A DNA stretch of 64,000 bases. Origin: Pseudoxanthomonas suwonensis 11-1 (GTDB lineage: Bacteria; Pseudomonadota; Gammaproteobacteria; Xanthomonadales; Xanthomonadaceae). Below are positions 26,642 through 37,313 of this stretch, piece by piece. Made by a program: the position numbers and the translations under genes. Under the pieces are notes generated by a model, which had not been told where the DNA came from, did no database searches, and was given only the letters and a program-made list of their open reading frames with translations. The stretch's first letter is position 1. Every line of letters begins with the position of its first letter. The DNA lies in assembly GCF_000185965.1 (NCBI RefSeq), contig NC_014924.1:2666001-2730000 (forward strand), written 5' to 3'.

Positions 26642-27400
26642 TCAGCCGGCCGCGGGACGCACGCGCCGGGCCAGCAGGCCCACGCGCGGACCGTTGCGCT
26701 CCTCGCGCACGCCCCAGTTGTCCACCTCGAAACCCGCCTCCTCCAGGATCGACTGCAGGTCCGAAAGGCGCAGCCAGAACGCACCCTTGCCGCGACCCGA
26801 GAACGGGTCGTTCCAGCCGCCCTCGCGGTGGGCGTGGCCCAGGTAGGTGCGGCCGCCGGATTCGAGCGTGGCGTCGTCCTCGTCCTCCCGGGCGATATGG
26901 GTATCCAGGTAGATCGCGTCGCAGCACGGCAGCAGCTTCCGCAGGTGCCGCACCGGTTCCTCGAGGTGGTACAGCACGCCGCAATGGAACACCACGTCAT
27001 AGTGCGGCAGCTCCAGCGCCGGATCCTCCACGTCCACCGCGAACACGTCCGCCGACTCGCCATACGCCGACAACCGGGCGTGGGTCTTGATCACGTTGAG
27101 CGGACGCAGGTCGACCGCGGTGACCCGCGCGCCGTAGCTGCACAGGCCGAGGGTGTGGATGCCCTCGAAGCAGCCGATCTCCAGTACCGTCCTGCCGGCG
27201 AGGCCAAGCTCGCGATCCAGGCGGGTGATGCGCTTGTCCGGGATCGGCTCCACCTGCTCGCGCTTGCCCTTGCGGGCGGTGAGCGAACCGATGATGCGGC
27301 CATCCCCCAGCTCCGTGGCCGCGTGCCAGGGCAGCGATTCGTTGATCAGCTTGAGGTCGGCGTCGGGAAGGATGGGTTCGAACCTGGGCATCGCTTTCAT
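26642..27400 (-). CDS. SAM-dependent methyltransferase of the LPS locus
   Basis: 252-residue class I methyltransferase. The SAM-binding motif I is VLEIGCFEGIHTLGLCSYGA at about 79-98, followed by VTAVDLRP and a post-motif FHCGVLYHLEEPVRHL near 145-160. The substrate is unknown. Its ATG overlaps the wzt stop by four bases (ATGA), so it is made together with the ATPase of the O-antigen exporter. In E. coli O8/O9a a methyltransferase (WbdD) ends the O chain and the Wzt C-terminal domain recognises that end. A similar role is inferred here; methylation of an internal sugar is the main alternative. Confidence 0.82.
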   Translation of the reverse strand: MKAMPRFEPILPDADLKLINESLPWHAATELGDGRIIGSLTARKGKREQVEPIPDKRITRLDRELGLAGRTVLEIGCFEGIHTLGLCSYGARVTAVDLRPLNVIKTHARLSAYGESADVFAVDVEDPALELPHYDVVFHCGVLYHLEEPVRHLRKLLPCCDAIYLDTHIAREDEDDATLESGGRTYLGHAHREGGWNDPFSGRGKGAFWLRLSDLQSILEEAGFEVDNWGVREERNGPRVGLLARRVRPAAG

Positions 27401-28626
27401 CCGTGCACTGGTGGGAAGGATGCGACCGTGGCGGCCGCCGGGACCCCGCCGGCGCGGGCGGAATGCCAGCGGCCGGTCGGCTGCATGCGGGTGGAACCAT
27501 GGAACTCGCCTTCGACCTTGAAGCGCAGCGGTCGGCTGAGGAACTGCTGGCTGCCGTCGGCACCCAGGCCCACCACCACCCACTGGTAGAAGCCCGGGCA
27601 CAGCTCCAGCGGGCCGGTCTCAAGCTGGAACGTATCGCCGGGAGCCACGCTGAAGCCGGCGCGCGCGGAGTGCCATTCGGCCACGGTAGGTCCGTTGGCC
27701 TCGTGCAGGACCACGCTCAGGCGCATCGGCCCGTCGCCCTGGTGGCGGCCGGCCAGCGCCACCGCTTCGCCATGGCGGATCACCACCGGCTCGCCTTCCA
27801 GCGCCTGGCCGCCACGCTGCATCGAGAACTCCACCCGCTCGGGATGGAAGGAGATGTCCTTGGCCGGGCCACGGGTGCCGGTCAGCTCCTGGTAGCGGGC
27901 GATCGCCTCCTGCGGGCTGCCCAGCAGCAGCGGCCGCCCCTTGTCGAGCACCAGGCCGCTGCTGGCCATGCGCGAGACATGGTTCATGCCGTGGGTGACC
28001 AGCACCACCGCCGAACTGCGGCGCATCTCGTCCACGCGCTCGTAGCACTTCATGCGGAAGCCGAGGTCACCGACCGCAAGCACCTCGTCGATCAGCAGGA
28101 TGTCCGGCGACATCACCACCGTGGCGGCGAAGCCCAGGCGCGCCTTCATGCCGGAGCTGTAGAACATCACCGGCATGTCGATGTGCGCGTCCAGCTCGGC
28201 GAAGTCGATCACCTCGTCCATGCGCCGCGCCGCCTCTTCCTTGCCCAGGCCCAGCAGGCGCGCGCGCAGCTGGATGTTCTCGCGGCCGGTCAGCGAAGGC
28301 GCCATGCCGGCCATCAGCTCGATCATCTTCTCCAGCCGGCCCTCGCGGCGGATGCTGCCGGTATCCGGCGCGAGGATGCCCGACAGCAGCTTGAGCAGGG
28401 TGGACTTGCCGGCACCGTTGCCGCCCAGCACCGCCAGGCACTCGCCGCGGCGCAGGCTGAAGCTGACGTCGCGCAGCGCCCAGAACTCGTCCTCGCGCAG
28501 CACCTCGCCGTGGCGGCGGCCGAGGGCCTCGCTGACCACGTCATGCATGCCATAACGCAAGGACTTGCGCAGGTTGCGCGCGTATTTCTTGCCGAGGCCG
28601 CTGACTTCCAGCAGTACGTCGCCCAT
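27397..28626 (-). CDS. wzt: O-antigen ABC exporter ATPase with C-terminal domain
   Basis: 409-residue ATPase of the Wzm/Wzt exporter that moves undecaprenol-linked O antigen across the inner membrane. Seen: Walker A GGNGAGKS at 68-75, signature YSSGMKARL at 156-164, Walker B ILLIDE at 176-181, switch H212. The chain continues about 155 residues past the ATPase (about 255-409), a length and beta-rich character like the Wzt carbohydrate-binding domain that selects capped chains; residues such as FYQWVVVGL and WHSARAGF are visible there. The extreme C-terminus (WHSARAGGVPAAAT) is Ala/Pro-rich. One base separates it from wzm; it overlaps the methyltransferase. Confidence 0.9.
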   Translation of the reverse strand: MGDVLLEVSGLGKKYARNLRKSLRYGMHDVVSEALGRRHGEVLREDEFWALRDVSFSLRRGECLAVLGGNGAGKSTLLKLLSGILAPDTGSIRREGRLEKMIELMAGMAPSLTGRENIQLRARLLGLGKEEAARRMDEVIDFAELDAHIDMPVMFYSSGMKARLGFAATVVMSPDILLIDEVLAVGDLGFRMKCYERVDEMRRSSAVVLVTHGMNHVSRMASSGLVLDKGRPLLLGSPQEAIARYQELTGTRGPAKDISFHPERVEFSMQRGGQALEGEPVVIRHGEAVALAGRHQGDGPMRLSVVLHEANGPTVAEWHSARAGFSVAPGDTFQLETGPLELCPGFYQWVVVGLGADGSQQFLSRPLRFKVEGEFHGSTRMQPTGRWHSARAGGVPAAATVASFPPVHG

Positions 28627-28627
28627 G

Positions 28628-35348: not shown

Positions 35349-36412
35349 GCGCGCGCACCCGTCGCGGCCGCGGCGACCTCGGCGATCGCCTGGCGCAGCC
35401 GCTCGAACGAATAGTCCGCGGCGATGATCCGCGCCGCTTCCTGCAGGTGCCGCTCGCGCACCGACGGATCATCGAGGTAGGCAGCGATACCCGCCCCCGG
35501 ATCGTCCAGCCACACCGCTCCGGCCAGCTCCTGGTAGGCGCGGCTGGGCGTGGCCACGACGGGCACGCCATGCGACAGCGCCTTGAGTCCGCGGTTGGCG
35601 GACTTGGTCGCCGAGAACGCATCCAGGCTGTTGGGTACCAGGCACACGTCGGCCAGCGGCAGCAGCGCATCGACGATGGTCGGCGTCCACTCGAAGTAGC
35701 GGCTGGCCACCGGCAGCTCGCCGGCCAGGCGCTCGAACTTGCCGCGGTTGTTGCTGACCACCCACAGCTCGGCGCCACGGCTGGCGGCCTCGCACAGCGC
35801 CTCGCGGTACAGCAGCAGGTCCTCGAGCCCGAACCTCGCGTACGCGGCCCCGTGGTTGCCGTACCACAGCAGTACCGGGCCGGAGGGCGCGGGAACCGCT
35901 TCGGGGCGCCGGCGCAGGCTGCGCAGCGCGGACAGCAGGCCATGGCGCAGGCCGAGCAGGCTCCGCTGCCGCGCGAGCAGGTCCGGGGTCTCGACGATGT
36001 CCGGCACCACCAGCACGCGCGCATCCGGCAGGCCGGTCTCGGCCAGCACCACCTCGCGCATCGCGCCGGTCGGCACGGTGACCGCGGACAGGCCGCGCGC
36101 CAGCTCCACGAAGCGCTGGCCGAAGGTCCTGCCCTCGCCGGCATAGCCGTCGATGAAGATGTTGTCGCACAGGTCGGCGACCACGGGCACCCCGGCGTCC
36201 TGGGCATGGCGCGCCCAGCGCGCGTGCTTCTGCGACAGCGGCTTCACCGCCAGCGCCAGCGTGGTGCCGGCCCGGGGAGGAACGTCGCGGCCGCATACCC
36301 GTGCCTTCCAGCCCTCGGCCTTCGCGGCGCAGCCCGGCAACAGCGCCCGGTAGCGGACGCTGGCGAGGTTCAGGTCCCGGCTCGCGACATGGATATGCAA
36401 GGTGCCCGTCAT
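35345..36412 (-). CDS. GT4-type glycosyltransferase
   Basis: 355-residue GT-B-like transferase. The N-terminal half has HIHVASRDLNLASVRYRALLP; the C-terminal half has PVLLWYGNHGAAYARFGLEDL near 180, ELWVVSNNRGKFERLA near 220 and the donor-binding ALLPLADVCLVPNSLDAFSATKSANR segment, with PVVATPS after it (motif GVPVVATPSRAY near 292). No membrane helix is seen. It is the first transferase after kdsA in the cluster, 52 bases downstream, and overlaps the next gene by ATGA. Confidence 0.75.
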   Translation of the reverse strand: MTGTLHIHVASRDLNLASVRYRALLPGCAAKAEGWKARVCGRDVPPRAGTTLALAVKPLSQKHARWARHAQDAGVPVVADLCDNIFIDGYAGEGRTFGQRFVELARGLSAVTVPTGAMREVVLAETGLPDARVLVVPDIVETPDLLARQRSLLGLRHGLLSALRSLRRRPEAVPAPSGPVLLWYGNHGAAYARFGLEDLLLYREALCEAASRGAELWVVSNNRGKFERLAGELPVASRYFEWTPTIVDALLPLADVCLVPNSLDAFSATKSANRGLKALSHGVPVVATPSRAYQELAGAVWLDDPGAGIAAYLDDPSVRERHLQEAARIIAADYSFERLRQAIAEVAAAATGARA

Positions 36413-36464
36413 GCTGCAAGTCCCTGTCCATGGTTCCCGCCGACCCGTGCCGGCGGGTGCAGCG

Positions 36465-37313
36465 TCAGCGGATGTCGAGCGGCTCGAAACCCTTCACCAG
36501 CTCGTCCAGCGCCTTGATCTGGGCGAGGAACGGATCGAGCCGGTCCAGCGGCAGCGCGCTGGGACCGTCGCAGCGCGCGCGGTCCGGGTCCGGGTGCGCC
36601 TCCAGGAACAGGCCGGCGAGGCCGACGGCCATGCCGGCGCGGGCCAGCTCGGCGACCTGGCGGCGGCGACCACCGGAGGCGGCGTCACCGGGGTTGCGGC
36701 GCTGCAGGGCATGGGTCGCGTCGAAGATCACCGGCAGGCCGTCGGTGGCCTCGATCATCTCGCGGAAGCCGAGCATGTCGACCACCAGGTTGTCGTAGCC
36801 GAAGCAGGTGCCGCGCTCGCACAGGATCACCTGCTCGTTGCCGGCCTCCTTGCACTTGGCGGCCACGTGCGCGATCTGGCTCGGGCTGGTGAACTGCGGC
36901 TTCTTGACGTTGACCACGCGGCCGGTGGAGGCGATCGCGTTTACCAGGTCGGTCTGGCGGGCGAGGAAGGCCGGGATCTGCAGCACGTCCACGACCTCGG
37001 CCACCGGCGCGGCCTGGTGGACCTCGTGCACGTCGGTGATCACCGGCACGCCGAAGGCGCGCTTGACCTCGGAGAAGATGCGCAGCCCCTCCTCCATGCC
37101 CACGCCACGGTAGGAATGGATGGACGAACGGTTGGCCTTGTCGAACGAGGCCTTGAACACGAACGGGATGCCATGGCGGGTGGTGGCCTGGACGAAGGCC
37201 TCGCACGCGCGCAGGGTGGAATCCAGGTCCTCGAGGACGTTCAGTCCGCCGAACAGCACGAACGGCAGGCGGTTGCCGACCTGTACGCCCTCGGTGATCC
37301 GCACGATGCGCAT
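36465..37313 (-). CDS. kdsA: 3-deoxy-D-manno-octulosonate 8-phosphate synthase
   Basis: 282-residue enzyme that makes Kdo-8-P from arabinose-5-P and phosphoenolpyruvate. Seen: [20 protein letters not shown] near 53-72, [22 protein letters not shown] near 110, [23 protein letters not shown] near 165 and FDATHALQ near 195; complete length. In most gammaproteobacteria of this group kdsA lies between pyrG and eno; here it stands between metB and LPS glycosyltransferases. It may therefore be a second, locus-specific copy. No kdsB (CMP-Kdo synthetase) is seen nearby. Confidence 0.95.

Follow-up and report, generated by a model that had tools for sequence, protein, structure and literature searches.

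A gene run between metB and the etf genes

The window studied here is a stretch of 64,000 nucleotides from the genome of Pseudoxanthomonas suwonensis 11-1 (NC_014924.1, positions 2,666,001 to 2,730,000), and this work concerns nine of its minus-strand genes, which may direct the synthesis, capping and export of an O polysaccharide and which include a two-domain glycosyltransferase (GT) that probably transfers 3-deoxy-D-manno-octulosonic acid (Kdo). The nine genes fill the interval between a gene at 37355-38590 and genes at 24835-26585, which we take to be metB and the etf genes, respectively. They can be regarded as a single run because neighbours overlap by 1-4 nucleotides (nt) or sit 1-66 nt apart when ATG starts are used. 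The metB-etfA site is described as a variable lipopolysaccharide (LPS) locus in Xanthomonas and Stenotrophomonas (PMC2238763). An earlier reading of this DNA from its letters (the sequence-only reading) had proposed that the run makes an O antigen, caps it with Kdo, reads the cap and exports the chain; the genes that it named are real, and each was found on the minus strand at the positions given below.

The gene at 29422-31401 encodes the two-domain glycosyltransferase, whose KpsS-like part matches PF05159 well above the cut-off (62.3 bits against 20, E = 6.9e-17). Its stop overlaps by 4 nt the start of wzm (28628-29425), which encodes a permease of the ABC-2 (ATP-binding cassette) type, and this is followed by wzt (27397-28626), whose product has an ABC ATPase domain (PF00005, residues ~45-250) and a C-terminal domain (residues ~260-390). 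The stop of wzt in turn overlaps by 4 nt the start of a gene for an S-adenosylmethionine (SAM) methyltransferase (26642-27400; Methyltransf_9, Methyltransf_11 and Methyltransf_25 over cut-off). At the other end, the run begins with kdsA (36465-37313), encoding Kdo-8-phosphate synthase (NCBIfam PRK12457 with 524.9 bits for a cut-off of 457, and TIGR01362 also over cut-off), and continues with a GT4-like glycosyltransferase gene (35345-36412; PF13692 with 27 bits, at the cut-off), a gene for a 277-residue protein that resembles a glycosyltransferase by eye only and matches no family of Pfam or NCBIfam (34515-35348), a GT2-family glycosyltransferase gene (32935-34515; PF13641 and PF00535 over cut-off in the frame scanned from 34530), and a gene for a 479-residue protein with a GT8-like C-terminal part (31468-32907; PF01501 with 22.6 bits, below the cut-off of 24.3).

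The two-domain glycosyltransferase and its orthologs

Within the genus, the two-domain enzyme was found at E ≤ 1e-3 in one of 17 genomes, its own. At the same threshold, nine of 345 genomes of the family have a match (own included), which is full length in its own genome only. Scans of the class (matches in 6/369 genomes at 1e-8) and of the phylum (5/398 at 1e-12), both with the own genome counted, gave three full-length orthologs (L042, L043 and L046). A search for related loci with the single window enzyme found no locus, and a search with four full-length proteins aligned found six among 136 candidate stretches; as these stretches came from two peptide patterns, the ortholog counts are lower bounds. 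The six loci belong to a gammaproteobacterial metagenome-assembled genome (MAG; L042), Pseudomonas sp. GM50 (L043), a betaproteobacterial MAG (L044), Methyloversatilis (L045) and Methylobacterium (L046 and L047).

The window protein and its six full-length orthologs were aligned (seven rows) and used to build an AlphaFold model of the enzyme, with a predicted local distance difference test (pLDDT) of 82.1 and a predicted template modelling score (pTM) of 0.57. Foldseek ranked chains of KpsC, a Kdo transferase of capsule synthesis, at positions 1-7 (E = 2.5e-9 to 8.7e-8, template modelling (TM) score by target of 0.52-0.57), and the root-mean-square deviation (rmsd) of 6.3-8.4 Å restricts the likeness that we claim to the level of the fold. 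WbbB appeared from rank 14 (5fa1, E = 4.6e-7; TM 0.39-0.45), LARGE1 at rank 8 and the GT8 structure 3tzt at rank 20. A profile search with the seven sequences gave the same partners, KpsC (E = 7.4e-7), WbbB (E = 3.7e-4) and, for the N-terminal part, 3tzt (E = 0.011); the NCBIfam KpsS model scored 27.7 bits, far below its cut-off of 600. From the Foldseek and profile searches, residues ~1-290 form a GT8-like domain, with a DAD motif at codons 31017-31009. According to the model, to PF05159, and to the same searches and alignment, residues ~300-659 form a domain of the retaining Kdo-transferase type, and this C-terminal half is thus predicted to share the modified GT-B fold of that superfamily (GT99/GT107-like).

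In retaining Kdo transferases, the aspartate of a QxxxD motif is described as the nucleophile, the histidine of an HP motif as the acid and a glutamate as the base (PMC9587256, PMC10148158, PMC12887879). The window enzyme has QVPHD at 29938-29952, where the predicted nucleophile is the aspartate of codon 29940-29938; the glutamine and aspartate are invariant in all seven rows, and the motif aligns with that of the KpsC structures 6mgd and 6mgc. The HP motif is equally invariant (7/7), with its histidine at 29836-29838. The KpsS-like domain of the sequence-only reading therefore holds up: the nearest folds are Kdo transferases instead of families unconnected with Kdo, and nucleophile and HP are retained. 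That reading needs correcting for the first ~290 residues, which form the second, GT8-like domain.

Linkage to the exporter and supply of Kdo

The genes of the enzyme, Wzm and Wzt are immediate neighbours in the window as well as in L042-L045, i.e., in four of the six ortholog loci found elsewhere. Spacing in these five clusters ranges from -7 to +7 nt between enzyme and wzm and from -1 to +1 nt between wzm and wzt. The recurrence of this order shows that the grouping of the genes exceeds chance, and the association of enzyme and exporter pointed out by the sequence-only reading is kept in four other bacteria. Besides the trio, the five clusters have in common a GT4-like and a GT8-like gene: the GT4-like product of the window is similar to proteins of 759-819 residues in L042-L045, and each of these loci encodes one or two proteins with 44-48% identity to the C-terminal part of the 479-residue protein (both of the relatives scanned, from L042, exceed the PF01501 cut-off). 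The other genes are less constant in L042-L045, with the methyltransferase in one of four (L042), the GT2 gene weakly matched in three and kdsA in one (L042, truncated). Identity to the window proteins is 40-47% for the Kdo-type domain, 29-33% for the GT8-like domain and 52-54% for the Wzt ATPase. The orthologs in Methylobacterium lie at L046:9971-11890 and L047:9971-11878, and in L047 the neighbouring gene on the opposite strand has an FkbM-type methyltransferase domain.

The window Wzm has no Pfam match and reaches 22 bits (E = 1e-4) with NF050109, far under the cut-off of 380. We place it as the permease because it shares 27-29% identity with the Wzm proteins of L042-L045; the two of these that were scanned (L042 and L043) match ABC2_membrane. 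The window Wzt aligns over its full length with the Wzt of L042-L045, and Foldseek matched its model to the full-length Aquifex aeolicus Wzt 7k2t over 389 columns at 26% identity, with a poor superposition (rmsd 19.4 Å in the first row). Judged from these similarities, the pair is predicted to form a Wzm/Wzt exporter. In the model, the C-terminal part of Wzt consists of strands, with a ten-residue mean pLDDT mostly of 68-87 over residues 261-370. Three of the five C-terminal domains match Wzt_C at E ≤ 1 (best 1.1e-4), the window copy not being among them. The extra domain noticed in the sequence-only reading is present and, by full-length alignment and fold match, resembles that of other Wzt proteins, which in described systems reads the chain end (PMC11231755).

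Kdo-type enzymes beside such exporters are not unique to the window. In another genus of the same family, the metB-etfA site (L018:6428-10744) carries a wzt, matched in its ATPase part, followed by the gene of a 715-residue protein; over residues 2-375, this protein is clearly orthologous to the GT99 (beta-Kdo) module of WbbB (E = 1.6e-86). Its C-terminal stretch looks by eye like a coiled coil, and the gene before wzt looks like a wzm, with no match to the window Wzm. Two clearly different versions thus occur at the metB-etfA site. A more distant Kdo-type domain, without the glutamate of the ExG motif discussed below, is part of a 1206-residue protein at L014:5630-11687, which adjoins genes resembling by eye those of phosphonopyruvate decarboxylase and alcohol dehydrogenase.

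As for the donor, the whole genome has one PF05159 match, one KdsA and one KdsB. It has no CTP_transf_3 match besides KdsB and no NeuB match in a search that was positive in 9/14 control genomes, which makes Kdo activated with cytidine monophosphate (CMP-Kdo) the likely donor: going by the gene content, it is the only route to a CMP-ulosonate found in the genome.

The kdsA of the run is also the only one of the genome, whose pyrG-eno interval lacks kdsA (the name pyrG, here and below, being one that we presume from its sequence). At E ≤ 1e-40, kdsA was matched in 16 of the 17 genomes sampled in the genus; the remaining genome, which is 87% complete, gave no match. Two kinds, about 50% identical to each other, divide the 16 evenly: type 1 is 49-50% identical to the copy of the window, and type 2, which includes it, 78-81%. 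Seven of the eight type 1 genes are flanked by pyrG and eno; the remaining one has pyrG on one side and the contig end on the other. Within 8.5-13 kilobases (kb) around each of the seven other type 2 genes, no protein matched the pyrG-eno region, metB, etfA, wzm or wzt. We therefore rejected kdsA as the sign of a dedicated Kdo supply, since it is the sole copy of the genome and its type occurs at other places in 7/16 congeners; the "make" step that the sequence-only reading had assigned to it is not borne out. On the side of a dedicated supply we count one of two kdsA copies in genome G182, which lies with a wzt-like ATPase gene and an 879-residue KpsS-like open frame (L016:3746-12650; one of six genomes examined). 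A second case on this side is L042, where wzt and another GT8-like gene are followed by a kdsA fragment (L042:15797-16147) that covers profile positions 2-114 of 258 before it meets a stop, and where the MAG (genome G454) has an intact, different kdsA elsewhere.

A proposed Kdo cap, its rivals and known systems

The best explanation of these data as a whole is that the exporter recognises a Kdo cap through the C-terminal domain of Wzt, although we would put no more than even trust in it. The polysaccharide would be made in the cytoplasm by products of the run and exported by Wzm/Wzt. The GT8-like module would add one sugar, and the C-terminal module would then add Kdo from CMP-Kdo with retention, through an Asp-Kdo adduct with the HP histidine as acid and a relocated glutamate as base, and so end the chain. 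Binding of the Kdo end by the Wzt domain would let only finished chains leave. The position of the enzyme gene against those of the exporter suggests this, short of proof: a tag for "finished" that is read by the pump. The reading is based on the fold likeness, two catalytic residues, the CMP-Kdo route, the recurring enzyme-wzm-wzt unit and the Wzt C-terminal domain; from these we infer the donor, the anomer, the terminal position of Kdo, its recognition by Wzt, the order of the modules and the role of the relocated glutamate. In our judgement, which is not a computation, it is likely that the enzyme transfers Kdo, and that Kdo caps the chain is plausible, if unproven, with the balance about level. 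The make-cap-read-export unit of the sequence-only reading is accordingly strengthened by the enzyme fold, the Wzt domain and the linkage of the three genes, and weakened by the sole-copy kdsA, the misplaced base glutamate and the lack of a ruler in the model.

A number of observations weigh against a Kdo cap read by Wzt. The third catalytic residue of the enzyme is not at its canonical place, so that two of the three are kept, and we advise against assigning the protein to GT99 or GT107. An M-Q-E motif at 30187-30195 puts an invariant methionine at the place of E158 of WbbB and E66 of KpsC, and an invariant glutamate (codon 30189-30187) two residues later (hhalign probability 99.8, E = 9e-30). 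An ExG motif, whose glutamate aligns with the base of WbbB and KpsC (residue numbers counted by hand), is common to nine KpsS-like relatives, but this 9/9 is partly a matter of choice, because two of the 11 motif-bearing frames, L014 and L036, were kept out of the profile; these have no ExG and seem closer to the window family (L035 does not display the motif pattern, and L019 and L021, on short contigs, fell outside the motif scan). The displaced glutamate is a candidate replacement base; as the base of KrkA is reported on another element (PMC12887879), activity of the window enzyme is conceivable despite the methionine. Ordinary GT-B enzymes stand between KpsC and WbbB in the Foldseek ranking (ranks 9 and 11-13, E = 1.7e-7 to 4.6e-7, TM 0.32-0.41). 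A coiled-coil ruler is described as consistently found in terminating enzymes (PMC11231755), and the longest helix of the enzyme model has 26 residues, which leaves no long ruler and departs from the likeness to terminators of the WbbB type. (A home-made heptad score was dropped because it failed to discriminate, with 0.90 for the window GT4-like protein and 0.94 for the L018 protein.) Overall confidence in the model of Wzt is low (pLDDT 65.5), and a search of PDB sequences with its C-terminal domain alone retrieved no solved Wzt domain, the best match being an unrelated protein at E = 0.026. This domain shares 39% identity with its counterpart in L042 and only 23-26% with those of L043-L045, which does not demonstrate a common ligand. 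L046 (21.9 kb) and L047 (16.5 kb) have no match to the window Wzm, Wzt or any other window protein tested.

Other functions of the same genes have also to be weighed. The fusion of a GT8-like with a Kdo-type module could be a polymerase or side-chain enzyme that places Kdo inside the repeat, the chain being ended otherwise. It resembles KrkA, a single protein with Kdo-transferase and ribosyltransferase activities that builds the K13 repeat and whose base glutamate is described as relocated (PMC12887879); the lack of a long coiled coil in the model agrees with such a role, which also predicts the GT4-like and GT8-like genes common to the five clusters. The adjacency of enzyme, wzm and wzt amid genes that differ (partly by eye) fits a cap and its reader better, and we hold a polymerase to be rather unlikely. 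The C-terminal domain might instead use another donor, in a family that has drifted from Kdo transfer; KpsS1, although related to the Kdo enzymes, works with pseudaminic acid (PMC12887879). The missing canonical glutamate and the company of phosphonate-biosynthesis-like genes (by eye) around the distant L014 relative speak for it, and yet the absence of NeuB, KdsB as the sole CTP_transf_3 protein, the invariant nucleophile and HP, and best fold matches among Kdo enzymes make it improbable.

The methyltransferase of the run could also make the cap, a methyl group read by Wzt; the Kdo-type enzyme would then carry out an adaptor step or an internal one. Among O antigens exported by ABC transporters, caps with methyl or phospho-methyl groups have been described (PMC11231755). 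In the run, wzt and the methyltransferase gene overlap, and in L042 a homolog with 41% identity is encoded immediately upstream of the enzyme; however, L043-L045 keep the enzyme, wzm and wzt together with no methyltransferase homolog at E ≤ 1e-3, and we find a methyl cap decidedly improbable.

If Kdo is the cap, the enzyme could belong to a family as yet undescribed, a proposal that we make tentatively and with more doubt than belief. It would join a GT8-like module to a retaining Kdo transferase with a moved base (invariant FYMQE), occur in alpha-, beta- and gammaproteobacteria, install an end group containing Kdo, and mostly be accompanied by a Wzm/Wzt reader of its own, the three genes forming a cassette for capping and export without a coiled-coil ruler. 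A separately built Kdo terminator would then join the few described, and cap enzyme and exporter could move between bacteria as a unit. It would also offer testable cases of chain-length setting without such a ruler and of a retaining Kdo transferase working with a displaced base.

A search of one literature library, judged by titles and the openings of abstracts, gave no description of this two-domain family, which shares features with several known systems. KpsC (GT107, the beta-Kdo transferase of group 2 capsules) has the same fold, QxxxD motif and HP histidine, whereas the window enzyme has its glutamate off the aligned place, is fused to a GT8-like domain and lacks a KpsS and KpsC set, given the single PF05159 match of the genome; a group 2 capsule system was rejected on this count. 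WbbB, with its GT99 module (Klebsiella pneumoniae O12 and Raoultella terrigena), shares the fold, the Wzm/Wzt partner and the Wzt C-terminal domain. It is described as having a coiled coil in addition to two more GT modules, and the O12 system as having a beta-Kdo end and a Wzt binding module (PMC11231755). The window enzyme differs from it in its weak sequence match, its GT8-like partner domain and the lack of a visible long coiled coil. The GT137 terminator of K. pneumoniae O4, compared by description only, adds an alpha-Kdo end that is needed for ABC export (PMC11231755), but has another predicted fold, an alpha linkage and a coiled coil. KrkA (GT140, Escherichia coli K13 capsule), also compared by description, likewise joins the Kdo-transferase fold to another transferase and has a relocated base, its partner being a ribosyl system where that of the window is GT8-like. 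The main text on the metB-etfA LPS locus of Xanthomonas and Stenotrophomonas has no occurrence of kdsA, Kdo or kps, and places wzm and wzt at the same site as in the window (PMC2238763).

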